From positions 1,674,001 through 1,738,000 of the forward strand of contig NZ_CP088252.1 in assembly GCF_021117385.1 (NCBI RefSeq): a stretch of 64,000 nt of DNA, given 5' to 3'. This stretch comes from Frateuria soli (lineage in GTDB: Bacteria; Pseudomonadota; Gammaproteobacteria; Xanthomonadales; Rhodanobacteraceae). Each line of letters begins with the position of its first letter. Within the stretch, counting starts at the first letter, position 1. Made by a program: the position numbers and the translations under genes. This document shows positions 19,674 through 41,766 of this stretch, one piece after another. The notes beneath the pieces were generated by a model. It was not told the DNA's origin and did no database searches. It saw only the letters and a program-made list of their open reading frames with translations.

Positions 19674-20495
19674 TCAACCGGGCATGCGCGACCCTGGCTG
19701 CAGGTCACCGGCCCTGACCTTGATCGCGGCGCTCTCTTCTTCCACCGGATAAACGCCCCGCAATACGTCGTCGAAGTGCGAGCGCACGGCCCGGTTGCAG
19801 CCACAGGCAATGCTCTCCAGTCCTCCCGCCTGGGTCACGCGCACGCCGCCGCGGCGGGTCTCCAGGATGCCGCGGTCCTTCAACTGCTTGATCACGCGGC
19901 TGATGTAGCTGCGCCCGACACCGAGCATGGAAGCGAGTTGCTCCTGGGTGAGCGGCACGTCGTGGTCGCCCGTGCGATCCAGGGCGGCGATCAGCCACTT
20001 GGCGGTCCGCTGCTCGATGGAGTGCGCCGCATTGCAGGCCACGGACTGGAACACCTGGGCCATCAGGCAGTCGGCGTAGCGGGCGAACAGATTGCGCAGG
20101 CTGGGCGACCGCATCTTGGCCTGTTCCAGCTCCGCAGCACCTATCCGCAACACCGGACCGGGGAATTGCACGACGGTACGCGAATACGACGGCAGCCGCC
20201 CCTGGCTGACAATGCCGCCGACCGCGCCCTCCCTCCCCACGAGCGCCGTCTCGATGCCACGACCGTCTTCCAGCAGCACCATGAACGAAACCAGCGCGGG
20301 ACCGCAGGGGAAGTAGACGTGGCGTACCGGGTCGCCGGGTTCGTAGAGCACACGGCCCACCTCCATCCGCTGGGATTCGAGGTGGGGCTGCAGCGCGACC
20401 AGGTCGTCCTGGTGCAGCGCGCGCAGAAGATTGTTCGGTGGCGCGGCCTCGCTCAATTCGCCGGGTGACTGCGCGCGCTCGTACTGGCTAGCCAT
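19674..20495 (-). CDS. Crp/Fnr-family transcriptional regulator, first of a paralogous pair
   Basis: A 273-residue regulator with an N-terminal cNMP-binding-like beta barrel (VYFPCGPALVSF, ETALVGREGAVGG) and a C-terminal winged helix-turn-helix (LTQEQLASMLGVGRSYISRV). The barrel lacks an evident cAMP-binding Arg/Ser cassette and the Fe-S cysteine set of Fnr. A C-terminal CGCN motif is shared with its paralogue at 29,264. It is divergent from the first phytochrome-like kinase, with a 259-base shared control region, so it probably controls that cluster, itself, or both. AGGGG precedes the ATG. Confidence 0.9.
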   Translation of the reverse strand: MASQYERAQSPGELSEAAPPNNLLRALHQDDLVALQPHLESQRMEVGRVLYEPGDPVRHVYFPCGPALVSFMVLLEDGRGIETALVGREGAVGGIVSQGRLPSYSRTVVQFPGPVLRIGAAELEQAKMRSPSLRNLFARYADCLMAQVFQSVACNAAHSIEQRTAKWLIAALDRTGDHDVPLTQEQLASMLGVGRSYISRVIKQLKDRGILETRRGGVRVTQAGGLESIACGCNRAVRSHFDDVLRGVYPVEEESAAIKVRAGDLQPGSRMPG

Positions 20496-28867: not shown

Positions 28868-29263
28868 GCGATGAGGCAGCCGGCCCGGGGCTGGCTCGAA
28901 GCCTCGCCAGGCGCGCGGCGGCTCTGGCCGCAGCTGCGCAGGCGAGGCTCCTGCGCCCCGCTTCAGGCATTCACAGGCACCACGTTCAACGGACCGTATG
29001 GGTTCGCGCGCACGGGCGTGGGTGTGCGCACGACGCGCCGTTCTGCGCAGCCGCGACCATCACCTGCGCACCATCTGCACGAAATCACCTGCTTGTGTTC
29101 ACAAGTGGATAGGCGCGGCGCCGCCTTGCAGGCAAGCTCCCCCGCTCATTACCTGTCGATGTCCGCAGGGGCATCGTCCATCACGGCGGCGGCGCAAGCG
29201 CCGGCATGCATGGACCGTTCTTACGGGAGGTCTCGGTAGGCACAAGAGCGGACAAGGAACACG
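28868..29263. promoter_or_regulatory. 396-base intergenic region upstream of second Crp/Fnr gene, with palindrome
   Basis: No convincing gene is visible. The clearest signal is the perfect dyad TTGTGTTCACAA at 29,093-29,104, about 160 bases before the GTG start of the second regulator. It could be its own operator or that of the paralogue at 19,674. The rest is GC-rich and featureless, and may include the end of the hybrid-kinase transcript; no clear terminator was found. Confidence 0.4.
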
Positions 29264-30058
29264 GTGGCGTTGCCCGGGAAATCAGCACCCAACTGGTCGG
29301 CAAACAGCCTGCTCGGCTCCCTGTCCCTGGAGGACATGTCGTTGCTGGCGCCGCACCTGCTGCCCTGGTACGGCGAACCCGCAGACGTGCTGTATGCACC
29401 CGGCGACAACGTGGGAACCGTCTATTTCCCCTGTGGGCCCAGCCTCGTCTCTTACCGCGTCATGCTCGACGATGGCCGGGGCGTGGAAACAGCGCTGGTC
29501 GGCCGGGAGGGCGCCGTGGGCGGCATTGTCAGCCACGGTCGGCTGCCCGCTTTCGCGCATGCCCTGGTGCAGTTTCCTGGCCTGTTCTATCGCATGAGGA
29601 CGCGCCAGCTGGAACAGGCGAAGATCAGCTCGCCTACCCTGCGACTCCAGTTCGCGCGGTATGCCGACTGCATGGTCGCGCAGGTGTTCCAGTCGGTCGC
29701 CTGCAACGCGGCCCACACCATCGAGCAGCGCGCGGCCAAATGGCTGATCGCGGCACTCGACCGTACCGGGGACGGCGACGTGCCGCTGACCCAGGAACAA
29801 CTGGCGTCGATGCTCGGGGTCGGTCGCAGCTACATCAGCCGTGTCGTCCAGAACATGCGGCTGCGCGGCGTCCTGGAAACGCGGCGAGGGACCGTGAAGG
29901 TGCATGACATGGCCGAGCTCCAGCGCATGTCCTGCCGATGCAACGATACCGTTCGCCGGCACTTCGGGGAGGTCCTCAAAGGCGTCTATCCGTCCGACGA
30001 CGGCAGCATCCGCACCGGAAAAGCCCAGTCCCCGCCCGGTACGGACACGACCCGTTGA
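29264..30058 (+). CDS. Crp/Fnr-family transcriptional regulator, second of a paralogous pair
   Basis: A 264-residue regulator with the same build as the one at 19,674: beta-barrel sensor (VYFPCGPSLVSY, ETALVGREGAVGG) and winged HTH (LTQEQLASMLGVGRSYISRV). The stretch from ARYADC to the HTH is nearly identical between the two. The C-terminus has CRCN where the paralogue has CGCN. The start is GTG with AAGGA about six bases upstream. Ligand unknown; it lacks obvious cAMP or Fe-S residues. It ends 88 bases before the island's left end. Confidence 0.9.
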   Translation: MALPGKSAPNWSANSLLGSLSLEDMSLLAPHLLPWYGEPADVLYAPGDNVGTVYFPCGPSLVSYRVMLDDGRGVETALVGREGAVGGIVSHGRLPAFAHALVQFPGLFYRMRTRQLEQAKISSPTLRLQFARYADCMVAQVFQSVACNAAHTIEQRAAKWLIAALDRTGDGDVPLTQEQLASMLGVGRSYISRVVQNMRLRGVLETRRGTVKVHDMAELQRMSCRCNDTVRRHFGEVLKGVYPSDDGSIRTGKAQSPPGTDTTR

Positions 30059-30146
30059 GCGCGGCGCCGGGCGGCTGCTCAGGCGGCATGGGGAAAGCTG
30101 AGGCCCGGGGGCCGGACCGCGCGACGACGATGCGCGGTCACTGGAT

Positions 30147-30160
30147 TGGCGGAGAGAGTG
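30147..30160. repeat. Left attachment site copy (attL core)
   Basis: TGGCGGAGAGAGTG is identical to the 3' terminus of the tRNA-Ser gene on the complementary strand (40,252-40,265). Identity ends abruptly on both sides, as expected for an integration core. A 9-base partial copy, TGGCGGAGA, recurs at 30,319-30,327 just before the integrase start, where it also serves as the ribosome site. Confidence 0.8.
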
Positions 30161-30291
30161 TCAAGGATGGAGCCATTCGCAAGGATTCGCGCCCATTCGC
30201 CAAGTATCGCCAAGCCTTTGTACGCAAAGCCTATTGCGTTCGCCCTAGTTCGTAGCGTGCGTTTGCGATGCGCCCAGAGCCGCTGTACCGT

Positions 30292-30304
30292 TGGGTAACC
30301 AAAG
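30292..30304. promoter_or_regulatory. GGTAAC-type motif before integrase (left end)
   Basis: TGGGTAACCAAAG lies about 25 bases before the integrase ATG and is followed at 30,305-30,311 by a second TGGTAAC. The same motif occurs with one mismatch before alpA (32,432-32,444, TGGGTAACCGAAG) and in shorter form near the right end (40,180-40,191, TGGTAACAAAAG). The distribution suggests arm-type integrase or excisionase sites, or a shared operator. Confidence 0.45.
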
Positions 30305-30328
30305 TGGTAACGACGGTTTGGCGGAGAC

Positions 30329-31564
30329 ATGACGAGAACGCGAAACAAGCTCACCGCGCTGAAGGTACGGTCTCTCAAGGCGCCTGGCCGCTACAGTGAC
30401 GGAGGCAACCTCTATCTGTTCATATCGAAGCATGGCGCGCGCTCCTGGGTGTTCCGATACACCGACCGGCTGACAGGTGCGGTCAGGGATAAGGGGTTGG
30501 GTCCGGCGGCAGATATCACCTTGGAACGCGCGCGCGAACGTGCGACGGCCTGCCGGCTTCAACTACTCGAAGGGGGCGACCCAATCGACGCTGCCCGCGA
30601 GCGCCGGCAGAAGGAACGCGTCGAGCACGCCAGGCGCGTTTCCTTCGGTCAATGTTGCGAGCAGTACATCGAAGCGCACCGCGTGGGCTGGCGCAACGCC
30701 AAGCACGCGGAACAGTGGGGCGCCACCTTACGCACGTATTGCGCCCTGTTGTGGCCGCTCGATGTTGCGGCGATCGATACTGGGCTGGTCATGCGGTGCC
30801 TTGAGCCGATCTGGAAGGAAAAGACCGAAACTGCCAGCCGCCTGCGCGGCCGCATTGAATCGGTGCTGGCGTGGGCCACCGTGCGCAAGTTCCGACAGGG
30901 CGAGAACCCCGCGCGCTGGCGTCATCACCTAGACCAATTGCTGCCCAAGCGCTCGAAGGTCCAGAAGGTAGAGCACCGGCCCGCCCTGCCCTATGCCGAA
31001 GCAGCCACGTTCATGGCCGAACTTCGTGCGCGGCAGGGATTGGCCGCCCGTGCACTCGAACTGCAGATTCTTACTGCCACCCGCCCGGGAGAAGCGGCTG
31101 GCGCACTGTGGGACGAATTTGACCTAGATGCCGCCATTTGGACGATCCCCGGCGAGAGGATGAAGGCTGGCAAGGAACACCGTGTGCCGCTGTCGCCCGC
31201 TGCGCTGGCGCTACTACGCACGCTGCCGCGCGTCAGCGCTGCGGTATTCCCCGGCCCGCGAGGGAAGCCGATCACCACCGCGGCAGGCATGGGACTGCTG
31301 AAGGAAATGCACCCCGGCGTAACCGCACACGGTTTCCGCTCGACCTTCCGCGACTGGGCCGCCGAGTGCACGGCCCATCCCCGCGAGGTGATCGAGGCCG
31401 CCATGGCGCATCGGCTCAAGGATGCTGCTGAGGCGGCCTATCAACGCGGGGATCTGTTGCGCCGGCGCGCGCATCTAATGGACGACTGGGGGAGCTACTG
31501 CCAGGAAGGTGCCCACGTGAAGCATTCACAGCGCACGAAAGAAGCTCAGGAGCTAGGGCTATGA
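30329..31564 (+). CDS. int: Tyrosine-type site-specific integrase
   Basis: A 411-residue P4-type phage integrase. The N-terminal DUF4102 arm-binding domain has LTALKVRSLKAPGRYSDGG and LYLFISKHGARSWVFRY; the C-terminal catalytic domain has Arg in TATRPGEAAG, the HGFRSTFRDWA box, His in AMAHRLKD and the nucleophile Tyr in EAAYQRGDLL. It should catalyse integration at, and excision from, tRNA-Ser. GGCGGAG precedes the ATG. It is the first gene of the island, at the end away from the tRNA, and its stop overlaps the next gene by ATGA. Confidence 0.96.
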   Translation: MTRTRNKLTALKVRSLKAPGRYSDGGNLYLFISKHGARSWVFRYTDRLTGAVRDKGLGPAADITLERARERATACRLQLLEGGDPIDAARERRQKERVEHARRVSFGQCCEQYIEAHRVGWRNAKHAEQWGATLRTYCALLWPLDVAAIDTGLVMRCLEPIWKEKTETASRLRGRIESVLAWATVRKFRQGENPARWRHHLDQLLPKRSKVQKVEHRPALPYAEAATFMAELRARQGLAARALELQILTATRPGEAAGALWDEFDLDAAIWTIPGERMKAGKEHRVPLSPAALALLRTLPRVSAAVFPGPRGKPITTAAGMGLLKEMHPGVTAHGFRSTFRDWAAECTAHPREVIEAAMAHRLKDAAEAAYQRGDLLRRRAHLMDDWGSYCQEGAHVKHSQRTKEAQELGL

Positions 31565-32361
31565 GCGTCGGCCGGCCGCGCGTGTTTGCTTCGCGCATCA
31601 TCGGCGGGGCGGGATCGGCATTCCTGACCCGTGAAGCGCACCGTGCGACGTGGGGGCACGTCCGCACTCTCTACGGGGACGACCCGCCCGAGGGCATCAT
31701 GGATGCTGTGTCCGCTGCCGTGGCGCGCTATCTGGCCGACGAGGCGGCGCTTGGGAGCGATGCATCATGGGGCTTGGCCGAAGTGGTCAATGATGCGCGC
31801 GCCATCGCCAAGCTGTGCCGCGACTTGGCTGCGGAAGTGCCCGCCGCTGTTGAGCGGCTCACCGAAAATGCCCGCGTGCCGTCGCGTACCGACGAGCGCT
31901 TAGTCTCGCTTGCAGACCGCACGGGAAAGGCCGTGCGCCTTCATTTCCCTTCCGAGCTTGCCGGCGTGGAAGTGGATGCTTTGTTGGAGCGCGTGCGGCC
32001 GCTGCTGTCGCGCCCGATGTTGTGGCCGCAAGCGCCAACCTTCCCTGACGACCTGCGCAGACTGGCTGACCTTTGCGAGGCGTGGGTGGTCACGGCGGCG
32101 AGAGCCGAGCAGGAGGCAGGCAGGGCGCGCACAAAGCGGCCGCTGGTGGCACGCCAATGGCTGATTCGTGCGCTGCAGGATGTTCTGGTGCGATGGCCAC
32201 CGCCCCCGCCACACAACTACCCGGCCGCGGGCGAGGGCTTCATTTGCGACGTGCTCGAGGTCGCTGGCGCGCCCGTGCCTAGAAAGCTGGAATCGGATCG
32301 CGCCGCAGACAAGGACGCGGACATAGCGGGCCGCATCAAGGCGCTTCTGAAAGGCCGCTAA
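31561..32361 (+). CDS. Island hypothetical protein, 266 residues
   Basis: No family recognised. The protein is soluble and mainly helical. Its N-terminus is basic (VGRPRVFASR). A central part carries TDERLVSLADRTGKAVRLHFPSEL-like sequence split over residues 101-125. The C-terminus has a proline run (WPPPPPHNYPAAGEGF) and a charged end. It overlaps the integrase stop by four bases and is preceded by AGGAG within the integrase gene, so it is translated from the same message. Position next to int suggests a role in island control or excision, but nothing in the sequence proves this. Confidence 0.75.
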   Translation: MSVGRPRVFASRIIGGAGSAFLTREAHRATWGHVRTLYGDDPPEGIMDAVSAAVARYLADEAALGSDASWGLAEVVNDARAIAKLCRDLAAEVPAAVERLTENARVPSRTDERLVSLADRTGKAVRLHFPSELAGVEVDALLERVRPLLSRPMLWPQAPTFPDDLRRLADLCEAWVVTAARAEQEAGRARTKRPLVARQWLIRALQDVLVRWPPPPPHNYPAAGEGFICDVLEVAGAPVPRKLESDRAADKDADIAGRIKALLKGR

Positions 32362-32431
32362 GCGTTGGGGCGCAAGGGCTGGCGAATTAACGCCGGGATA
32401 GTCGGAGCGGCCCGCAGGGCCGTGTGAAAAA

Positions 32432-32444
32432 TGGGTAACCGAAG
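32432..32444. promoter_or_regulatory. GGTAAC-type motif before alpA
   Basis: TGGGTAACCGAAG is 35 bases before the alpA start and matches 12 of 13 bases of the site before the integrase. It lies in a 117-base spacer between the 266-residue gene and alpA, the only long spacer in the left half of the island, so an internal promoter or operator is likely here. Confidence 0.45.
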
Positions 32445-32478
32445 CCGCGGGCAGTCCGCAGGCATTCGGGAGAACCCC

Positions 32479-32688
32479 ATGCAATCCGCAAAGCTCGCTG
32501 TCGCAGAGCCGGCCTTTCTTCCACTGGTCGAAGCGTGCCGCCAGCACGGTATCGGCAGGACCAAAGCGTTCGAGCTGGCCGCCGCCGGCACGCTGGAAAC
32601 CTTCACGATCGGCAGCCGCCGCTATGTCCGGCTTGACTCCCTTCGAGCACTGCCCGAGCGCCTGAAGGCGGAAGGGGGTGCGCAATGA
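32479..32688 (+). CDS. AlpA/excisionase-like helix-turn-helix protein
   Basis: A 69-residue protein with a winged-helix DNA-binding fold. FLPLVEACRQHGIGRTKAFE forms the helix-turn-helix and LETFTIGSRRYVRLDSL the wing. This matches AlpA/MerR-like excisionases of P4-type satellites, which activate integrase or excision functions. The ATG at 32,479 has GGGAG six bases upstream; a longer frame starting 48 bases earlier lacks one. It overlaps the next gene by ATGA and heads a run of coupled genes. Confidence 0.85.
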   Translation: MQSAKLAVAEPAFLPLVEACRQHGIGRTKAFELAAAGTLETFTIGSRRYVRLDSLRALPERLKAEGGAQ

Positions 32689-32963
32689 TCAAGCACCCCG
32701 ACCTGACGTCGCTCCACAACGCGGCCGACTACGCCGCCACGCTGGCGTTCGCACATATCCCTGCCGACCGCTTGCTGGCCGTCGTGCCGTCGATCCGCCT
32801 GGAACTGATCGCGCTGCGACTTGGGGCGCGAGCCGATGCGCTCGAGCTGCTACGCCTGGTCGACGGGTTGCTGGCAGACGAGAAGGCCAGCGCGGAAGCG
32901 CGCGCCGCCTTCCAGCGCCTGCGCCGGGATGCCACCGCTTTGGCCGTATGGGTGACGCCATGA
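32685..32963 (+). CDS. Island hypothetical protein, 92 residues
   Basis: A small Ala/Leu-rich helical protein with alternating charged residues (LRLGARADALELLRLVDGLL). No family or motif is recognised and no signal peptide is present. The start codon overlaps the alpA stop by four bases and its stop overlaps the next start by four bases, so translation is coupled on both sides. This coupling is the main support for it being real. Confidence 0.7.
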   Translation: MIKHPDLTSLHNAADYAATLAFAHIPADRLLAVVPSIRLELIALRLGARADALELLRLVDGLLADEKASAEARAAFQRLRRDATALAVWVTP

Positions 32964-33439
32964 CGCCGCATCTTTCGTTTGCTGAGGCTTCGGCACTGGT
33001 CTGTCGCAACGCTGGACGCGTCGAGATGCCGGAGCCGTGGCTGCTGCTTGCCGCCCATGCGCTGCAGTCCCTGCACGCAGAGCCGCTAGCCGATTCCACG
33101 GGCGAGCTTGCCAAGGTGTGGGCGGCGCCAGCATTTGGCGGCCGCGATCCCGACGACCTGCTGGCCGAAACGCTCGACGTTTTGGACGCGGCGCAGCTGC
33201 GGCGAAATGACCTGATCAAGCCGCACGCGGAAACCATCCGCCGAGAGCTGCCGCGGATCGTCTGCGGTGCCGTGGACATTCAGTCGCCCGAGGCTGGGCC
33301 GGAGACGGCCGAAGCGCTCGCGCGCTGCCTGTATCGGGCCGAACGTGCGTGTGCAGCCATCCAAGCCTTGCTTGAAGGGCTTGGGCCGGTTTTGCCCCCC
33401 GCGGTCCTGCCGCCGTCGAAGTACGGGAACCTGCCATGA
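32960..33439 (+). CDS. Island hypothetical protein, 159 residues
   Basis: A soluble helical protein that starts MTPHLSFAEASALV and contains two short helical repeats rich in Ala, Leu and Glu, with a Pro-rich C-terminus (GPVLPPAVLPPSKYG). No family recognised. Its ATG overlaps the upstream stop and its stop overlaps the next ATG (both ATGA). A much longer in-frame opening exists upstream but would run through the previous gene. Confidence 0.7.
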   Translation: MTPHLSFAEASALVCRNAGRVEMPEPWLLLAAHALQSLHAEPLADSTGELAKVWAAPAFGGRDPDDLLAETLDVLDAAQLRRNDLIKPHAETIRRELPRIVCGAVDIQSPEAGPETAEALARCLYRAERACAAIQALLEGLGPVLPPAVLPPSKYGNLP

Positions 33440-33630
33440 CCGCCGCCGACCTCGCAAAGCAGGCCGCCGATACCGCGCGTGCCATCCGGACCAACACCGC
33501 CGGCTGGACGCACTACCTACCGCCGATCGATGCCGTCCAGGGGGTTCAGCGCCTGACTACGGAACTCGCCCGTTCCCTGGCCGCGCTGGCTGCACAAAAA
33601 GGAGCTCTCTCCGATGAACTCGAAGACTGA
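33436..33630 (+). CDS. Island small hypothetical protein, 64 residues
   Basis: A short helical protein (MTAADLAKQAADTARAI at its start, ending ALSDELED). It has no recognisable domain. It is ATGA-coupled to the upstream gene and its last 17 bases overlap the primase gene. Its place directly before the primase suggests a replication-accessory role, which is inference only. Confidence 0.6.
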   Translation: MTAADLAKQAADTARAIRTNTAGWTHYLPPIDAVQGVQRLTTELARSLAALAAQKGALSDELED

Positions 33631-35719
33631 GCCGGCGATGGCCGAGGCGGCGGCTGCGCTCGCTGCGGCGGGGTGGCGGGTATTCCCGCTAAAGCCTGCG
33701 ACCAAACTGCCGGCGATCAAGGCATGGCCCACCCTCGCTACCAGTGATGCGGCGACGGTGGCGGCCTGGTGGGGTCAGTGGCCGGGTGCCGGCATCGGTA
33801 TTGCCACGGGTCGAGGCGTGGCGGTCCTGGACGTGGATTGCAAAGACGGCGCGCGCGGCTTCGAATCATTGGCCGCACTCGAAAATGCGCACGGACCGCT
33901 GCCGCCGACACTCACCGTCGAAACCCCGAGCGGGGGCCAGCACTATTACTTCGCGGCGGAAGGGCTGCGCACATCGGCCGGCCAACTTGCGGCAGGGCTC
34001 GACGTCCGCGGTGAAGGCGGTTTCGTGGTTGCGCCACCCACGGCGCTGGCCGATGGTCGCGCGTATCGGTGGGCGCATGTCACCACGACGGCGCCGGCTC
34101 CCGCGTGGATCGCCGCAGCGGCCGCGCGCGCGTCCATCGAACCGCTGCCCGCAGCTATTCCTGCCGAGGCCATGCCGGAACTCGTAGCCGACCTTCGCAG
34201 CGCGCTCGACGCCATCCCCGCAGACAACCGCACGGACTGGATTGCGGTAGGCGCCGCGTTGCGGCCGCTGGATGGCGTGGGGCGGGATCTGTGGATCACC
34301 TGGAGCGCCACTAGTTCGAAACACAATCCCGAGGCCGATCCTGACGTGTGGGAGACGATCGGCCACGACTCGACCGGCCCGGCCGCTGTGTTCGCCCGCG
34401 CGCAGCGGCACGGCTGGCAGAACCCACAAGCGTTGCGCAGGCTGGCTGAGGTGTTCAAAGGTGCTCCGGCCGTGCCTGGCTCGGCGCTACGGCCCGTGCC
34501 GATCGGAGACGTGATGACGGCGACCGTGCCGCCACCGCGCTTTATCGTCCATCCGCTTATCCCCGCCGGCCACTTGACCCTGTTCGGCTCGCACGGTGGC
34601 AGCGGCAAGTCCATCCTTGCCCTCACCATCGGCGCGCACGTCGCCGCGGGCCAGCCTTGGGCAGGTTTCGCCGTGGAGCGCCGGCCGGTTCTCTACGTCA
34701 GTCTGGAGGACGCCGGCCCGATCGCGCGGTACAGACTGCGCAAGGTCATCGAGGCATACGGCTTGGACGCGGCGGCCGTCACTGGCGGCCTTCGCATCCT
34801 GGACGGTGCGGAAGGTTCCGGAGCGCTGATGTCCGAAAACGCCGCGTTCGGAGTGCGCCAACTCGTCGAGACGGCCACGCTCGCAGAACTGCGGGCGGCG
34901 GTAGGCGATGCCGGCCTGATCGTCGTGGACAATGCCAGCGACGCGTACGACGGGCCGGAGAATGACCGGCGGCAAGTGCGGGCCTTTATCCGCGCGCTTG
35001 CGTCCCTGGGCCGCCAGAACGGCGCGGGCGTGCTGCTCTTGGCCCATATCGACAAAGCGGCCGCGCGCTTCGGTTCAAACGGGAACAGCTATAGCGGTTC
35101 CAGCGCTTGGCACAATAGCTCCAGGTCTCGGCTCTCGCTTGTAGACGAACGCCACGGGAAGGAACTGCGGCAAGAGAAGTTGAACCTCGGCAAGGCCGCG
35201 GCGCCTGTTCGTCTCGCATGGACGGATCACGGCGTGCTGGTGCCGATCACCGGGGATGCGGGGGCGAGTGAAGCGCAAGGCGAGACGGACGCCCTGGCCG
35301 TCCTGGCGGCGATCGAGGCGGCGGCCCGTGACGGGGTGAGCGTGCCGACGTCGCGCACCGGGCCGGCGACCGCACAACGGGTGCTCGAAAACTTGCCGGA
35401 CCTCCCCGCCCATCTTCGGGGCGCACGCGGCAGGGAGGATTTCTGGAATGCCGTTACCGATCTGCAGCGTTCCGGGCGAATCGCGGTCGAAAATTTCTGG
35501 GACGCCAAAAGACACGCCAAAGAAAGATTCACTGTCGCATCGCAGGTTTCGCAGGTTTCGCAGGTTTCGCAGGTTCCCGTAGCTAGCGAACAAGCTGCGA
35601 ACCGGGAAGCCTGCATCGCAGGTTTCGCAGGTTCCCTGCGCGGGGGTGTGGGGGTAATAGGTGCGAAGGAGAACATGCGAGCCGACGTTGCGACGGACGT
35701 CATGGAGTCCCTTCCATGA
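33614..35719 (+). CDS. Bifunctional primase-polymerase / RepA-like helicase
   Basis: A 701-residue replication protein. Residues 8-175 are a Prim-Pol domain with AVLDVDCKDGARG (catalytic DxD), PSGGQHYYF and RGEGGFVVAPPT. A PriCT-like linker follows at about 195-270, then a RecA-type ATPase (AAA_25/RepA) with Walker A GSHGGSGKS near residue 325 and Walker B-like LIVVDNASD. The C-terminus contains a run of VSQ repeats encoded by tandem CGCAGGTTT units. AAGGAG lies eight bases before the ATG. It would start and unwind island DNA during satellite replication. Confidence 0.93.
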   Translation: MNSKTEPAMAEAAAALAAAGWRVFPLKPATKLPAIKAWPTLATSDAATVAAWWGQWPGAGIGIATGRGVAVLDVDCKDGARGFESLAALENAHGPLPPTLTVETPSGGQHYYFAAEGLRTSAGQLAAGLDVRGEGGFVVAPPTALADGRAYRWAHVTTTAPAPAWIAAAAARASIEPLPAAIPAEAMPELVADLRSALDAIPADNRTDWIAVGAALRPLDGVGRDLWITWSATSSKHNPEADPDVWETIGHDSTGPAAVFARAQRHGWQNPQALRRLAEVFKGAPAVPGSALRPVPIGDVMTATVPPPRFIVHPLIPAGHLTLFGSHGGSGKSILALTIGAHVAAGQPWAGFAVERRPVLYVSLEDAGPIARYRLRKVIEAYGLDAAAVTGGLRILDGAEGSGALMSENAAFGVRQLVETATLAELRAAVGDAGLIVVDNASDAYDGPENDRRQVRAFIRALASLGRQNGAGVLLLAHIDKAAARFGSNGNSYSGSSAWHNSSRSRLSLVDERHGKELRQEKLNLGKAAAPVRLAWTDHGVLVPITGDAGASEAQGETDALAVLAAIEAAARDGVSVPTSRTGPATAQRVLENLPDLPAHLRGARGREDFWNAVTDLQRSGRIAVENFWDAKRHAKERFTVASQVSQVSQVSQVPVASEQAANREACIAGFAGSLRGGVGVIGAKENMRADVATDVMESLP
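35541..35634. repeat. 9-bp tandem repeat CGCAGGTTT in 3' part of primase gene
   Basis: Four head-to-tail units CGCAGGTTT (last ending TTC) occupy 35,541-35,576, and a further one and a half units occur at 35,617-35,634. In frame they encode repeated Val-Ser-Gln. The regular spacing resembles iterons that bind a replication initiator; the location in the initiator gene supports this, but a protein-level repeat is equally possible. Confidence 0.6.
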
Positions 35720-36009
35720 CTTCGCAGAAATTCCGCACCGTCGAAATTTCGGATTCTGAGGCCGTCCAAAAGTGTCTGGAAATTTTGGAGGCCGCCGCGC
35801 GCGTTTCCAATTTTTCCATTACGCCCGACGGTCGCGTCTCGGAAAGTGACGCCGCCGCCTTGCTCGGCGTCGCGCCGCTCACGCTGCGGAATTGGCGGCT
35901 CGCGACCGCGGCCATCCCCTGGCACCGAATCGGAGGGCCGGCGGGCCGCGTGACCTATCGGCTTGCTGACCTGGCCGCGCATATCGAGGCGGCCCGCGAA
36001 AGTCGCTAA
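35716..36009 (+). CDS. Island HTH protein, 97 residues
   Basis: The C-terminal half has a helix-turn-helix-like segment (AAALLGVAPLTLRNWRLATA) followed by a wing (RIGGPAGRVTYRLADLA). This is typical of AlpA/excisionase or small phage DNA-binding proteins. The N-terminal half, ISDSEAVQKCLEILEAAARV, is helical and may dimerise. The ATG overlaps the primase stop by four bases. It is likely a regulator of the structural genes that follow; target unknown. Confidence 0.75.
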   Translation: MTSQKFRTVEISDSEAVQKCLEILEAAARVSNFSITPDGRVSESDAAALLGVAPLTLRNWRLATAAIPWHRIGGPAGRVTYRLADLAAHIEAARESR

Positions 36010-36010
36010 C

Positions 36011-36040
36011 CGAACCGTACCGAACCGTACCGAATCGTAC
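36011..36040. repeat. Three 10-bp direct repeats CGAACCGTAC
   Basis: Units lie at 36,011-36,020, 36,021-36,030 and 36,031-36,040 (third unit CGAATCGTAC). They start at the last base after the HTH gene stop and lie about 90 bases before the prohead protease start. Ten-base spacing places each unit on the same helix face, as for cooperative binding of a regulator or initiator. Confidence 0.6.
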
Positions 36041-36130
36041 CTAAGCAAACTCGACGGCTCGCCGCGCGCGCGCGACGCTGCCACCGCCGCGCAACTGCTG
36101 CGCGTCGCTTTCGTTCGGGATGAACCGACC

Positions 36131-36799
36131 ATGCAAAACCTGTCCCTGAAACTCGCCGCTGATCCGTCTGCCGCAGGCACTTTCACCGGCCTGGCCAGCA
36201 CGCCGGACCTAGACCGCTCCCGCGACGTGATCCCGCCGAGCGCCTGGGCTGCCACGCTGGACGCCTGGGCCGCGCGCGGCGGTCGCATCCCGCTGCTGTA
36301 CCTGCACGACCAGCGCGAGCCTGTCGGCGCGATCACCAGCGCGCGCGCCACCGCTCACGGCCTGGAGGTTGAGGGCGCCATCGCGGTGAACACGCCGACC
36401 GGCGCCATTGTTTACGAGCTTGCCAAGCTGGGCAGCCTGTCCCTGTCCATCGGCTTCGTTGTGCCGGAAGGCGGCGCCGTGCGTGATCCGCGTACTGGCG
36501 TCCGCACGATCCACGTGGTCGACCTGTACGAGATTTCCCTGGTCCCCGTCGCGGATAACCCCGCCGCGGTTGTCCAGTCAGTAAAGCAGTTCCGCGAGTG
36601 CGCCAGCATCCGCGAGTTCGAGGCCGCAGCGCGAGAGGCGCTGGGGCTGTCCGCACGTCAAGCAAAGACCCTAGCCGCCGTTGGCTGGCCAGCCCTGCGC
36701 CGGGATGGCGCCGAGCCGCGTCGAGAAGATGCGCCGCCATCTGCTGCCCCTACCGGCCCGAGCAACGTCGAGATCCGGCGCGCGCTGGGCCTGTCCTAA
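36131..36799 (+). CDS. HK97-family prohead protease
   Basis: A 222-residue phage maturation protease (peptidase family S78). It has DRSRDVIPPSAW, the conserved LYLHDQREPVGAI with the catalytic His, the LSLSIGFV strand with the catalytic Ser, and YEISLVPVADNPAA. These enzymes cleave the N-terminal scaffold region of the major capsid protein during head assembly. No ribosome site is strong. It precedes the capsid gene by 22 bases, the usual order in HK97-like modules. Confidence 0.92.
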   Translation: MQNLSLKLAADPSAAGTFTGLASTPDLDRSRDVIPPSAWAATLDAWAARGGRIPLLYLHDQREPVGAITSARATAHGLEVEGAIAVNTPTGAIVYELAKLGSLSLSIGFVVPEGGAVRDPRTGVRTIHVVDLYEISLVPVADNPAAVVQSVKQFRECASIREFEAAAREALGLSARQAKTLAAVGWPALRRDGAEPRREDAPPSAAPTGPSNVEIRRALGLS

Positions 36800-36821
36800 A
36801 ACCCCATTCGAGGAACACCCC

Positions 36822-37982
36822 ATGAGCGAAGTCGTCACCGCCGCGCTGCGCGAGCACGCGGAAAAAATCGAACAGAAGGCCGCGGCTGACCGCGCCGAAA
36901 TCAAGAAGCTGCAGGACGAGCGCGCAGAGATGCAGACGCGCCTGGAGGGCCTGGAGCAGGAGTTCGCAGGCGTGAAGGCGCACACGGGCCGTGGCAGCTC
37001 CCTGCTGGACGCCGGCCCGTCGCCGGTCGCTGAGTTCCTGAAGTCCCCGCAGCTTCAGGCCATGCGCGATGGCGCTCCGACCACGGGCCGCCTCACCTTG
37101 AAGTCTGGCGGCCTGAAGGTGCTGACCAAGGCCATCAGTAACACCGGCGTGGGCCAAGCTGGGGACAATGCCTACAACGTTCAACCGAATCGCTGGGATG
37201 GGCTCGGCAATAATCCGCAGCGGCGTCTCTCGCTGTTCGACGTGCTCCCGAGCATCCCTGTCAGCACGGGCACCTTCGAGTACATGCAACTCAACGGCTA
37301 CTCGAACGCGGCCGCGACGCAGGCGAAGGAAGGCGACGCGAAGGCGCAGGCCGGCGTGCCGACCACCGTGCAGACGGCGAACATCGCCACCATTGCCCAC
37401 TATGTCCGGGCCTCGCAACAGGTGCTCGACGACGCGCCGGCGCTGTCGCTGCAGCTCACCAACTTGCTCACCTATGGCGTGCTCGCCAAGGGCGAGGATG
37501 AGCTCATCAACGGCCCCGGTACTGCTGGCCGCATCAAGGGCCTCGTGACGCAGGCGACCGCCTATGCGGCCACCGCGACCACTGCGGCGGACATGATCGG
37601 GCAGGCCATCACCGAGCTACAGGCGAACGGCTGGACGCCTTCGGTCGTGGTGCTCAATCCGGCCGACTGGTTCGCGATCACGAGCGCGAAGAACACCGGC
37701 AATGGTGCCTACAGCATGGGCTCGCCCCGAGACCCGGCGCCGCCCTCGCTGTGGTCCGTTCCGGTCATCACGAGCGCATCGCTGGCGGCTGGCACCGCGC
37801 TGGTGCTGGACGCCTCGCAGGCGGCCTTGCTGGACCGTCAGGAGGTCGTTGTGGCGTCGAGCCGTGAGGATGGCTCCAACTTCACGACGAACATGGTGAC
37901 GATCTTGGGTGAGGGGCGGCTGGGCCTGGCGGTGTTCTCGCCGGGCGCGGTGCTGTCCGTCGACCTGACCCCGACCACGTAA
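36822..37982 (+). CDS. HK97-fold major capsid protein
   Basis: A 386-residue capsid protein. The first 50 residues are a coiled-coil delta/scaffold domain (AEIKKLQDERAEMQTRLEGL), to be removed by the upstream protease. The rest has HK97-fold features: TKAISNTG, SLFDVLPSIPVSTGTFEYM, the VRASQQVLDDAPALS helix, an E-loop-like GEDELINGPGTAGRIKGL, and the C-terminal VPVITSASLAAGTALV and GRLGLAVFSPGAV strands. AGGAA precedes the ATG by seven bases. A terminator follows, so the structural operon probably ends here. Confidence 0.94.
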   Translation: MSEVVTAALREHAEKIEQKAAADRAEIKKLQDERAEMQTRLEGLEQEFAGVKAHTGRGSSLLDAGPSPVAEFLKSPQLQAMRDGAPTTGRLTLKSGGLKVLTKAISNTGVGQAGDNAYNVQPNRWDGLGNNPQRRLSLFDVLPSIPVSTGTFEYMQLNGYSNAAATQAKEGDAKAQAGVPTTVQTANIATIAHYVRASQQVLDDAPALSLQLTNLLTYGVLAKGEDELINGPGTAGRIKGLVTQATAYAATATTAADMIGQAITELQANGWTPSVVVLNPADWFAITSAKNTGNGAYSMGSPRDPAPPSLWSVPVITSASLAAGTALVLDASQAALLDRQEVVVASSREDGSNFTTNMVTILGEGRLGLAVFSPGAVLSVDLTPTT

Positions 37983-38123
37983 CGCGAACAGCGTAAGGGA
38001 TGCGGCCTGGGCAACTGGGCCGCCGTCGTCCAGCCGGCGGTGATGACGACTCAAGAAACAACACCGGCAGCCGTGCAACGTGCTAGCCCGAGGGCGCTCC
38101 GTCCACTGAGGCACGGCAACACC

Positions 38124-38164
38124 AGCCCCCGCGTTCGGATCATCACCGGGCCGGGGGCTTTTTC
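38124..38164 (+). terminator. Rho-independent terminator after capsid gene
   Basis: AGCCCCC at 38,124-38,130 pairs with GGGGGCT at 38,153-38,159 and is followed by TTTTT. The loop of 22 bases is longer than usual. It lies in a 298-base spacer between the capsid and small-terminase-like genes, in which no other feature is seen. Confidence 0.7.
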
Positions 38165-38280
38165 ATGGCACCACTGGCTACCCCCCGGGTAGGGCGGGTT
38201 CAAAGTTCGGCGTCGAGGCATCGATGACCGCGGCGGCAGCCAAACTTTCACGTCCGCAGTTCAGAATTTTGGAGGCAGCT

Positions 38281-38661
38281 ATGCCCGCGCACCGCAAACC
38301 GACCAACGTCCTGGAGCTTACTGGCGCATTTCGAAAAGACCCGCAGCGGCGCCGCGTCGATCCAGCCACGAACAAGCCGATCGGACGGCCACCGAAGCCC
38401 GAATCCTTGACGTTCGAGCAGGCGTGGCGCTACATCGTGAGGTGTGCACCGCGTGACGTGCTGCGCGATGACAGGGACCGGCTATGGGTGGAAGTGGCGG
38501 CGCATCTGCTTGTGCAGTTCCGAGCCGACCCGGCTGCGATGCATCCGGCCAAGCTGTCCCGCCTGACCACCATGCTCGCTGCCCTGGGCATGTCACCGGC
38601 CGATGCGTCGCGGGTGAGCGCTACCCCGCGAAAAGTCACTAATCCGTTTGACGGCTTCTAG
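38281..38661 (+). CDS. Small terminase subunit-like protein
   Basis: A 126-residue protein with a basic proline-rich start (MPAHRKPTNVLELTGAF, then PIGRPPKP) and a helical C-terminus (KLSRLTTMLAALGMSPADAS). This resembles P27-type small terminase subunits, which bind phage DNA and start packaging. The start at 38,281 has GGAGG five bases before it; a longer in-frame opening from 38,224 lacks one. Satellites often carry only this terminase subunit so that a helper phage's large subunit packages their genome. Its 3' end overlaps the opposing small cargo gene by 23 bases. Confidence 0.7.
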   Translation: MPAHRKPTNVLELTGAFRKDPQRRRVDPATNKPIGRPPKPESLTFEQAWRYIVRCAPRDVLRDDRDRLWVEVAAHLLVQFRADPAAMHPAKLSRLTTMLAALGMSPADASRVSATPRKVTNPFDGF

Positions 38662-38890
38662 CGCCCCATCCACCGGCTCTAGGGGGCTCCGCGACTTGGG
38701 TTGTGACGTGCATGCCGTGCCATGTACTTGGCACGCGGGAAGCCATGAATGACACCTTTGGCGAGAGAGAAACGGCCAAGGCAATTTGGCCATTGTCCTC
38801 TAGGCGCGTCGCGATGCTGACTTCACCCGTCGGAGCATTGATGGCGCTCGCGAGTTCGAAGGCAGCCCGGTTGACTTCCTGGCTAGACAT
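38639..38890 (-). CDS. Small cargo protein coupled to the serine protease gene
   Basis: A predicted 83-residue protein whose ATG lies eight bases inside the end of the protease gene, so translation is likely coupled. An ATG at 38,899 is an alternative start. The sequence starts MSSQEVNRAAFELASAI and continues with alternating beta strands (GEVSIATRLEDNGQIALAV, VPSTWHGMHVTT) and a basic C-terminus. No family is recognised with confidence. Small alpha/beta modules of this kind accompany trypsin-like proteases in some proteins, so it could be a regulator, inhibitor or sensor. It overlaps the terminase-like gene tail-to-tail. Confidence 0.55.
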   Translation of the reverse strand: MSSQEVNRAAFELASAINAPTGEVSIATRLEDNGQIALAVSLSPKVSFMASRVPSTWHGMHVTTQVAEPPRAGGWGARSRQTD

Positions 38891-40094
38891 TGTGGCCATG
38901 CACCAATGTAACACCGAGCACGTCAAGGATCGGTTTAAGAGGAAGCATCAATGTTTTTCTGTGACCCGGCGCACTCGAATCCGGGCCGCCAGCGAACAGC
39001 AAACCGACCGAGGTTCTGCTGCCATCAATTTTTCGACAGACTATAAGGGACCCGGAATCCCCACCATCGGAGAAAATGTCTTGGTCGCCGTGGATTACAA
39101 AAACATTAGCAAAGTAAACCTGCCCCTGAAATCCGTAACTATTGGCATTAACACCGACACGAATGGGAATTAGCTCTTGACCAACAATAACTCCAGTCGT
39201 GTGCTCCGTGGTACGCCCTACTTTCTCGACGACCATTCCCACCATGGGGTCTTCGACTTGCCCCGGAGTGTCGTAGAAAGTCCGCTGCATGGATGAAACT
39301 CGCGCTTCATCCAGAATACGAAAAATGGCGGCATCTTGGTTTTCAAAGATGTTGACGTTCCCCTGGGTTCCCACGTGCATAGGAAGCGCCGCCGCATGCA
39401 AACCGATCGTGAAAGGAAACAGTCCGCCGGGCCCCACATCAAGCACTCCGGGAGCCAAGATTGGCAAGTCGGGCTCAGAGTGGCTGCAGGAGCCCGTTAC
39501 ATGGTTATTCGATAAACCAAAAATGCCGCCGGCCTGATCCCTGACAAGTGCACCGAGAGTGCCTGCTGACTCGGTGTTCCCCGGAGACACGGAGGAACCG
39601 CAGGCATATCGCAGTGTTCCTGCACTGCTGACAACCGCATAAGTTGCAGCTTGCGCAGTCGCCGGAATCTGCGAGAGATCTTCGACATGACCCAGCGGAT
39701 ATTCAATTTCGCAGCCGTTAATGTAGTTTGGCAGGTGCTTCGCTTCGGTCTTGGTCACCTTTCGACGCGTATAAATCAAGACCTTTTTATCTGCATCATT
39801 AAAAACAATTGACGTGATGCCCTTCGTCCTAAGGAAGGCCTCTTGCGCCTCGTTAAAGACAGCAACATCAACGCCAACTAACACGGCGTTTTCAACCGCC
39901 TGAGGAAGGGCTTGGCAAATGTTCTTTTCAACAGCCCAGCGGCGCACCGAGCTTGCGACTTCGTGGGCAGTCATTGGCTGAGGCGGTGCAAACTGGGTCG
40001 CCACGATGGTGGCCTCGCCCAATGAGTCCATGCCGCCTTCGGTAGAGCCGGCCGTTGGGAGGGTGCCGGTTGCACCCGATTGCGAGCTAGTCAT
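38883..40094 (-). CDS. Trypsin-fold serine protease, island cargo
   Basis: A 403-residue protein with a chymotrypsin-like domain in its second half. The triad reads His198 in LSNNHVTG, Asp254 in NQDAAIF and Ser347 in DGGDSGSLIV. The first 150 residues contain a separate alpha/beta module (VLVGVDVAVFNEAQEAFL, SIVFNDADKKVLIYTRR) of unknown role. No signal peptide is evident, so it probably acts in the cytoplasm. The pattern recalls NAL1-like bacterial S1 peptidases. The gene is AT-richer than its surroundings and runs against the rest of the island. GGGGG lies four bases before the ATG. Substrate unknown; a defence role is only inferred. Confidence 0.85.
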   Translation of the reverse strand: MTSSQSGATGTLPTAGSTEGGMDSLGEATIVATQFAPPQPMTAHEVASSVRRWAVEKNICQALPQAVENAVLVGVDVAVFNEAQEAFLRTKGITSIVFNDADKKVLIYTRRKVTKTEAKHLPNYINGCEIEYPLGHVEDLSQIPATAQAATYAVVSSAGTLRYACGSSVSPGNTESAGTLGALVRDQAGGIFGLSNNHVTGSCSHSEPDLPILAPGVLDVGPGGLFPFTIGLHAAALPMHVGTQGNVNIFENQDAAIFRILDEARVSSMQRTFYDTPGQVEDPMVGMVVEKVGRTTEHTTGVIVGQELIPIRVGVNANSYGFQGQVYFANVFVIHGDQDIFSDGGDSGSLIVCRKIDGSRTSVGLLFAGGPDSSAPGHRKTLMLPLKPILDVLGVTLVHGHNV

Positions 40095-40142
40095 TGATCC
40101 CCCTGTTCCCTTCTAACCACCGGTCTACGCCGGCGGGTCCAT

Positions 40143-40159
40143 GTGTTCGATTAGAACAC
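40143..40159. promoter_or_regulatory. Palindromic operator candidate upstream of protease gene
   Basis: GTGTTCGATTAGAACAC is a perfect inverted repeat (GTGTTC, five-base spacer, GAACAC), 49 bases before the protease start. It looks like a repressor or activator site. Between it and the tRNA lies a 90-base AT-rich segment, including TTGATATAAT on the plus strand at 40,211-40,220, likely to hold the promoter. Confidence 0.55.
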
Positions 40160-40179
40160 TAGAGGCGACGCGCCTAAAC

Positions 40180-40191
40180 TGGTAACAAAAG
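40180..40191. promoter_or_regulatory. GGTAAC-type motif near right end of island
   Basis: TGGTAACAAAAG resembles the sites before int and alpA (TGGGTAACCAAAG, TGGGTAACCGAAG). It is about 60 bases from the right core. Together with the left-end copy it is placed as an integrase arm-type site would be. Confidence 0.4.
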
Positions 40192-40251
40192 ATGGTTCGG
40201 AGACAACCCTTTGATATAATTTGTGCACAATCAAGCACTTACGGATGTTAG

Positions 40252-40265
40252 TGGCGGAGAGAGTG
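40252..40265. repeat. Right attachment site copy (attR core) within tRNA-Ser
   Basis: TGGCGGAGAGAGTG equals the last 14 bases of the tRNA gene including CCA, and equals the sequence at 30,147-30,160. Integration at a tRNA 3' end that preserves the gene is the usual strategy of P4-type integrases. Confidence 0.8.
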
Positions 40266-40341
40266 GGATTCGAACCCACGGAAGGTTTGACCCTTCGCCG
40301 GTTTTCAAGACCGGTGCCTTAAACCGCTCGGCCATCTCTCC
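40252..40341 (-). tRNA. serT: tRNA-Ser (anticodon TGA)
   Basis: A 90-base gene with CCA encoded. The 5' end is GGAGAGATGGCCGAG, the acceptor stem pairs GGAGAGA with TCTCTCC, the anticodon stem is CCGGT/ACCGG with loop CTTGAAA (anticodon TGA at 40,307-40,305), a long variable arm GAAGGGTCAAACCTTC follows, and the T-loop is GTGGGTTCGAATCCCAC. A long variable arm is typical of tRNA-Ser. It lies 27 bases downstream of serS on the same strand. Its 3' end is the right attachment core of the island and remains intact. Confidence 0.97.
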
Positions 40342-40368
40342 GTTGGACTTGGCGATGCGTTGTGCGCC

Positions 40369-41682
<1,314 letters not shown>

Positions 41683-41766
41683 TTATCGCCGTGGAGACCA
41701 CGCGCTAGCAACGCGGACCAACTTCCGGATGCCCGCAGAAGCCCCCTGCGACGGGCGGAGGCTCGG

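Follow-up and report, generated by a model that had tools for sequence, protein, structure and literature searches.

The closest described counterparts of the locus examined here come from several directions. There are conflict systems in which small domains lie beside trypsin-like proteases, together with hydrolase–caspase pairs (Kaur et al., 2020; PMC7159879), and LypABC-mediated lysis requires trypsin-like peptidase activity (PMC13236601). Others compare in position: the rexAB genes of lambda come immediately after CI, and RexAB of Pseudomonas putida two genes later (PMC12894663), BstA is found downstream of the prophage cI in an arrangement that its authors call strikingly conserved (PMC8585504), and defence hotspots occur in prophages and satellites (PMC9122126). 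Finally, a maize orthologue of NARROW LEAF 1 (NAL1) degrades a TOPLESS-like corepressor (PMC12915138). The locus itself is a pair of overlapping genes in a 64,000-nucleotide stretch of Frateuria soli (contig NZ_CP088252.1, forward-strand positions 1,674,001 to 1,738,000; hereafter the window), carried by an integrated satellite-like element. One gene encodes a NAL1-like protease and the other a small protein that is best read, from profile comparisons, as a free copy of the N-terminal module of the NAL1 family. While the NAL1-like protein family and its PHROG cluster are already known, the pair, its companion as a free NAL1_N-like module and the link to repressors appear to be new, since no description of them was found in the titles and opening lines of abstracts listed by literature searches (subscription papers and preprints being mostly outside their scope). 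Searches on NAL1-like proteases of prokaryotes, and on defence by prophages or satellites with trypsin-like proteases, likewise returned no description of the pair, in keeping with the initial annotation of this sequence, which had singled out the two-gene cargo as its best candidate for an undescribed system.

A NAL1-like protease and its companion

The features of the pair, whose open reading frames (ORFs), strands and 8-base overlap are as initially annotated, are the following:

38639..38890, reverse strand: small companion protein, 83 aa, probable stand-alone NAL1_N-like module, predicted helix-strand-strand-helix-strand (relatives, AlphaFold2, profile comparison)
38883..40094, reverse strand: NAL1-like trypsin-fold serine protease, 403 aa, triad H198/D254/S347 (Pfam, PDB, AlphaFold2, Foldseek)
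38883..38890, reverse strand: 8-base stop/start overlap of the protease and small genes, ATGTCTAG (ORF calls)
40143..40159, unstranded: inverted repeat GTGTTC-N5-GAACAC, 5' of the pair (genome pattern scan)
40163..40175, unstranded: second short inverted repeat, AGGCG-ACG-CGCCT (by eye)

The protease matches the Pfam family Nal1_C (PF25819) at 2e-8 (34.1 bits against a cut-off of 26.1), NAL1 accounts for the first nine of 13 matches in a PDB sequence search (best 1.3e-7), and phrog_25502, whose function is unannotated, covers nearly the whole length of the protein at 3e-72. Its AlphaFold2 model (predicted local distance difference test, pLDDT, 88.8) retrieved NAL1 at all of ranks 1–32 in Foldseek (best E 5.1e-16, TM-scores ~0.5–0.6). 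The triad proposed from the sequence (His198, Asp254 and Ser347) is the same in all 28 rows of an alignment that leaves out L076 and L077 as near-copies of L075, and the enzyme is very probably active. By eye, no hydrophobic stretch is seen at the protease start, in line with the annotated lack of a signal peptide; residues 1 to ~40 are modelled with low confidence. The N-terminal module had been described as unassigned, which holds in the sense that Pfam makes no call: NAL1_N (PF25608) matches neither the window protease at E 10 nor L049 at E 1, whereas among 11 distant proteases it is matched by nine with an E of at most 0.001, and in three of these the match exceeds the cut-off. It no longer holds for the fold, as this part of the protein agrees in position and in predicted topology with the N-terminal domain of NAL1 (helix 82–91, strands 93–99 and 104–109, helix 115–118 and strand 128–131 in the AlphaFold2 model). 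The corresponding sequence link is weak, the close-clade N-terminal profile scoring 20.35 (E 0.005) against the companions described below, with a decoy maximum of 14.4 (60 decoys).

Neither window protein, used singly, found a close relative in phages or viral contigs, and among 99 relatives the protease returned only its own genome and one distant match; the small protein returned its own genome and two weak matches, L004 (part of an open frame of 504 aa) and L005 (interrupted by two stops), which were judged to be chance. In plasmids, only distant matches to the protease were found (four records in one search, two in another). A first alignment, which combined the window protease and four distant relatives, led to 13 relatives on genome contigs and 23 on viral contigs, and a second one to 30 viral loci, of which 23 (L071–L093, including the four closest loci of the first viral search) form a close clade with 38–57% identity in the best segment. 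Near-copies occur among them (L075/L076/L077/L079, L080/L081 and L086/L087). All 23 carry an ORF of 70–78 residues directly 3' of the protease gene, so this small ORF is more than a chance reading frame, and 16 of the 23 show the 8-base overlap, as counted by a script that favoured the ATG nearest to such an overlap. The small gene also adjoins the protease in Thiomonas (L036) and in Methylobacterium (L035, start uncertain), which bears out the annotated coupling of the two genes; a small-protein profile built from 23 sequences had no match at E 0.1 in the other seven loci of the second viral search, the other 19 of the first or the other 11 genomic loci. Viral contigs provided 23 of the 25 close-clade relatives, a share that is biased because the viral collection was searched hardest. 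The small ORFs align along their length, and their pairwise distances follow those of the proteases (Pearson 0.93, Spearman 0.79; 22 loci, 231 pairs). Where it is measurable, the small gene appears to be under purifying selection, the ratio of non-synonymous to synonymous substitution rates (dN/dS) being 0.009 to 0.17 in the five of ten near pairs with computable dS (above 1.8, near saturation, in three of these five, and saturated in the other five).

The small protein is predicted to fold as helix-strand-strand-helix-strand (AlphaFold2, pLDDT 82.5), and its model has no Foldseek match at E 0.001 or better; the pro region of alpha-lytic protease, at rank 32 with E 0.14, was not taken as evidence. 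Pfam, which includes Trypco models, assigns no family to it at E 10, on which ground membership of Trypco1/Trypco2 was rejected, nor to its relatives in L036, L048, L049 and L086 at E 5. When the small-protein profile was searched over 17,984 ORFs from 120 sources, it returned 45 rows, of which 36 were known copies (duplicates counted) and nine represented seven further loci, namely L025 (5.7e-7), L026 (1.9e-4), L027 (0.003), L018 (0.0065), L023 (0.012), L016 (0.033) and L011 (0.096). In all seven, the match lies 3' of a distant NAL1-like protease, within ~300 bases. Profile comparison of the small family with these companions of distant proteases scored 49.1 (E 6.8e-9), that of the companions with the proteases' own N-terminal modules 80.5 (E 2.3e-14) and that of the small family directly with the modules 30.2 (E 6.6e-5, probability 64%, up from 43% in a first comparison), the three profiles reaching at most 17.2, 14.4 and 12.1 with 60 decoys taken outside the N-terminal module. 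The link is thus strong only by way of the intermediate companions, and it is this chain that makes a free NAL1_N-like copy the best reading of the small gene. Restriction of the small gene to the phage clade was rejected, since companions adjoin distant NAL1-like proteases as well.

When 369 genomes of the class were scanned with a profile of nine such companions, 21 of them contained matches, 30 in all, which open frames and positions divided into ten N-terminal modules of proteases and 20 stand-alone proteins. Sixteen of the 20 adjoin a NAL1-like protease, 15 within the locus examined (in L136 with a single gene between) and L144 as read from the contig position, and another lies at a contig end (L134). 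As the nine profile sequences had been chosen for protease adjacency, only the 11 stand-alone matches outside the profile are a test, and seven of these adjoin a NAL1-like protease. Viewed from the protease, a companion is seen at 11 of the 16 distant genomic loci with a readable protease end (L002, L011–L019 and L022–L027), counting that of L012, identified by eye and cut by the contig end, and that of L015, one gene further on. It is not seen at L002, L013 (where the contig ends), L014, L019 and L024, and none is seen, by eye or with the profile, beside the distant viral proteases listed. A conserved gene of ~300 residues follows the protease in L013, L015 and L019, and in L015 the companion module comes after it.

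In a tree of 67 proteases (a quick method, leaving out L091 and L093, which a motif filter had missed), the close clade and a sister clade B form one group with a Shimodaira–Hasegawa-like approximate likelihood ratio test (SH-aLRT) value of 99. In clade B, a hydrolase gene lies 5' of the protease gene: that of L007 matches LCAT (8.4e-11), L010 matches only DUF7379, weakly (0.0044, below cut-off), the L008 hydrolase reads alike, and L009 has an ORF of similar size in this position. Methylobacterium L035, which stands beside clade B (SH-aLRT 90), combines all three genes, a hydrolase (LCAT, 1.1e-9), the protease and the small gene; this weakly suggests that the small gene may be older than clade B and may have been lost there. 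More widely, a NAL1-like protease 3' of an alpha/beta hydrolase (L007, the rest by resemblance), with no small gene, is found in L007–L010, L038, L043 and L044, and a histidine-phosphatase-like gene (by Pfam for L008 only) follows the protease in L008, L009, L038, L043 and L044.

Neighbours of the pair in prophages and elsewhere

The gene upstream of the pair, on the same strand, encodes Peptidase_S24 in 15 and HTH_3 in 11 of the 17 close viral loci scanned, and is hence a CI/LexA-type repressor; the two exceptions are an integrase (L087) and an ORF without family assignment (L093). One upstream ORF was scanned for each of these 17 of the 23 loci, L076 and L081 being omitted as near-copies, and L085, L086 and L091 (which start at a contig end) and L092 (which has no upstream ORF) falling outside the sample. 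In the case of L072, the scan took the repressor that lies beyond an intervening 113-aa ORF with no Pfam match, and the near-copies L075 and L077 were both counted. The gap between repressor and protease genes is as short as 1 base (L090). At seven pairs of loci with proteases 90–96% identical, the repressors share 51–61% overall and 12–34% in their first 90 residues, a crude comparison because L075 is called with a long extension at its 5' end; for L074 and L088 the figures are 80% for the protease and 26% for the repressor, while both genes are shared in L080/L081 and L075/L077. Near-identical proteases thus follow divergent repressors, with different DNA-binding halves, which indicates that the pair moves between immunity types.

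Other settings occur. The pair faces an integrase in L085–L087 and lies, by eye, near packaging or tail genes in L091 and L092. In Methylobacterium sp. Leaf104, the triplet of L035 is convergent with genes for a class II prokaryotic Argonaute (1e-212) and a helical restriction endonuclease (5e-118; L035:9374-13071), and in Thiomonas L036 the pair has a YgjP-like peptidase gene in its vicinity, along with ORFs that resemble, by eye, transposases and recombinases.

The satellite-like element

In the window, the pair lies between a phage-like gene row and a tRNA-Ser gene, within the following element:

30147..40265, unstranded: integrated satellite-like element, 10.1 kb (empty site in congeners G005 and G003)
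30147..30160, unstranded: att repeat on the integrase side, 14 bp, TGGCGGAGAGAGTG (repeat search and empty sites)
30329..31564, forward strand: tyrosine integrase (Pfam Phage_int_M 2.2e-23, Phage_integrase 8.8e-12)
33614..35719, forward strand: Prim-Pol / AAA_25 replication protein (Pfam Prim-Pol 2.1e-44)
35716..36009, forward strand: small helix-turn-helix protein, a weak call (HTH_17 0.0034, below cut-off)
36023..36799, forward strand: prohead serine protease, Peptidase_S78, approximate start (Pfam 3.4e-16)
36822..37982, forward strand: HK97-type major capsid protein (Pfam Phage_capsid 1.5e-36)
38224..38661, forward strand: 145-aa ORF, candidate small terminase subunit by position only (no Pfam match)
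40252..40265, unstranded: att repeat on the tRNA side, TGGCGGAGAGAGTG, 14 bp (repeat search and empty sites)
40252..40341, reverse strand: tRNA-Ser (TGA), insertion target, with the att repeat at its 3' end (tRNA call)

Two congeners have an empty site: in G005 the match to window positions 29250–30160 joins that to 40252–41715 with 14 bases in common, and in G003 the match to 29288–30160 joins that to 40252–41715, again with 14 bases in common. Together with the att repeats, this identifies the island as an integrated mobile element and confirms the island of the initial annotation. An integrase, a tRNA att site, a replication gene and an empty site in kin are features of phage satellites of the phage-inducible chromosomal island (PICI) type. 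Among the eight island ORFs scanned, the virion genes are those for the capsid and the prohead protease only, and no Pfam match to a portal, large terminase or tail gene was found; on this gene content we call the element satellite-like, with putative helper dependence. Its left flank (29288–30160) is ~75% identical to an inverted stretch ~9 kb away (19849–20351), and second matches of this kind also occur in G003 and G005. Repeated 9-bp units (GTTTCGCAG) at 35537–35633, near the 3' end of the Prim-Pol gene, are possible replication iterons.

The island capsid protein is present at E 1e-20 in six of 147 relatives, its own genome counted. Three of the five other capsid-bearing regions were examined (G042, G465 and G049) and lack the pair at E 1e-3, which argues that the pair is cargo. 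The nearest related element, in G042, has a capsid ~61–62% identical and conserves the primase, the helix-turn-helix protein, the prohead protease and the 145-aa ORF (51% identical); at this locus (L116), near a tRNA-Leu gene, the primase, helix-turn-helix, prohead protease and capsid genes form a row with no protease pair. Three further points of the initial annotation agree with the present data. The pair is AT-richer than the island, with 54.0% G+C in the protease gene and 59.5% in the small gene against 66.7% in the island (30147–38660) and 67.6% in the window. It occupies the tRNA-proximal end, and it has its own upstream palindrome: the window site is the only occurrence of GTGTTC-N5-GAACAC in the 3.49-Mb genome, and could be an operator.

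Proposed function of the pair and its described counterparts

We give almost an even chance to the reading that prophages and satellites carry the pair as an exclusion cassette directed against phages, its small protein holding back or assembling a protease that acts in the cytoplasm. The two proteins would be made together in the lysogen, the gene overlap keeping their amounts matched. In a quiet cell the small protein, as a free N-terminal module, would most likely be bound to the protease, either restraining it or serving its assembly; a physical interaction is probable, and restraint seems slightly likelier than activation. Some sign of foreign infection would then alter the complex, and the protease would cleave a host or phage protein, whereby the infection would be stopped. 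For the role in phage defence put forward in the initial annotation, the repressor-linked position in prophages and the Argonaute neighbour in Methylobacterium are circumstantial support, and the proposal, which stays conjectural, is about evenly balanced. Tentatively, one might go further and see a new anti-phage system built on a serine protease of the NAL1 family that is controlled in trans by a free N-terminal module, a chromosomal pair logic having been captured by satellites and, behind many repressors, by prophages, and the sister lineage having been rewired to a lipase-like hydrolase.

Several observations weigh against this exclusion reading, which is built on sequence and gene context. 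Neither gene has a good match in PADLOC-DB 2.0.0 (one hit at 0.024), a promoter scan found no sigma-70-like site, and the window copy has no repressor directly upstream. Genes linked to repressors can moreover serve other lysogeny functions, and proteins encoded near repressors can act on them. The absence of the small gene beside homologous proteases had been named as evidence against coupling: the gene is present throughout the close clade, but it is missing beside several distant proteases and was not found in clade B, where the protease is kept. Three stand-alone companions (L137, L138 and L140) have no protease within the stretch examined. Lastly, the companions of L022, L023, L026 and L027 start with hydrophobic, signal- or lipoprotein-like stretches, by eye, whereas the L022 protease does not, so that a simple cytoplasmic complex does not fit there.

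ImmR and ImmA are a repressor and an anti-repressor protease, and the pair could likewise be a lysogeny switch, in which an ImmA-like protease cleaves the neighbouring repressor (or one belonging to a helper or a competitor) and the small protein acts as a brake. This we consider unlikely. The upstream repressor in 15 of the 17 loci scanned would fit, as would the similar C-terminal halves of several repressors, which the protease could recognise. These repressors already bear an S24 domain, however, through which repressors cleave themselves; pairs 72–80% identical follow repressors 26–30% identical over their whole length (for example L074/L088 and L074/L079); and the integrase-side copies of L085–L087 resemble the window copy in having no directly adjacent repressor. 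Cleavage of a repressor is nevertheless a fair rival, because a maize NAL1 orthologue degrades a corepressor (PMC12915138). A general proteolytic housekeeping or stress function, the pair being a moron that adds to fitness and has no phage target, has an equally small chance; it would account for NAL1-like proteases with companions on gammaproteobacterial contigs not recognised as mobile, and is at odds with the predominance of viral contigs, itself biased by search effort, in the close clade.

That the protease is a toxin and the small protein its antitoxin, the two stabilising the element, is improbable. Such a pair would explain the overlapping position of the small gene 3' of the protease gene and their constant association in the close clade, but not the protease of clade B, kept with no small gene; if triggered by phage, it would merge with the exclusion reading. 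The initial annotation also suggested control of the helper-phage capsid. An element that encodes its own capsid and prohead protease and also the pair invites this idea, extended to maturation of the satellite's capsid, which we nevertheless rejected as very improbable: an S78 prohead protease already stands beside the capsid gene, the three related capsid-bearing regions lack the pair, the pair lies on the opposite strand with another base composition, and it is not beside head genes among the prophage loci listed, the copies examined adjoining a repressor or an integrase except, by eye, in L091 and L092.

If the exclusion reading is true, the short list of exclusion systems known to be linked to repressors would grow by a serine protease that works in the cytoplasm and whose regulatory domain is encoded apart from it, and there would be a bacterial model for the NAL1 family, which in plants works through corepressor degradation; small and constantly paired, the two genes are easily tested. 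RexAB and BstA can be likened to the pair by position, its relatives likewise lying directly 3' of a prophage repressor, across different repressors; the candidate effector is here a protease, however, and the window copy is not linked to a repressor. The systems of Kaur et al. (PMC7159879) offer two likenesses, Trypsin with Trypco1/Trypco2, where a trypsin-like protease has a small co-occurring gene, and the alpha/beta-hydrolase and caspase systems, which recall the proteases of clade B and Methylobacterium behind an LCAT/PGAP1-like alpha/beta hydrolase, but the pair loci examined show no vWA-MoxR partner. LypABC, which is CARD-NLR-like, similarly has a trypsin-like peptidase in a defence-like system (PMC13236601), whereas the pair consists of two genes only, in neither of which Pfam calls an ATPase or CARD. 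By sequence and fold, the likeness is with rice NAL1 and the prokaryotic NAL1-like proteins (Nal1_C, NAL1_N; phrog_25502), which share the trypsin fold, the conserved triad and an N-terminal alpha-beta module. Compared with NAL1, the window protease is prokaryotic, phage-borne and diverged in its N-terminal module, of which the pair appears to hold an extra copy as a separate, overlapping gene.

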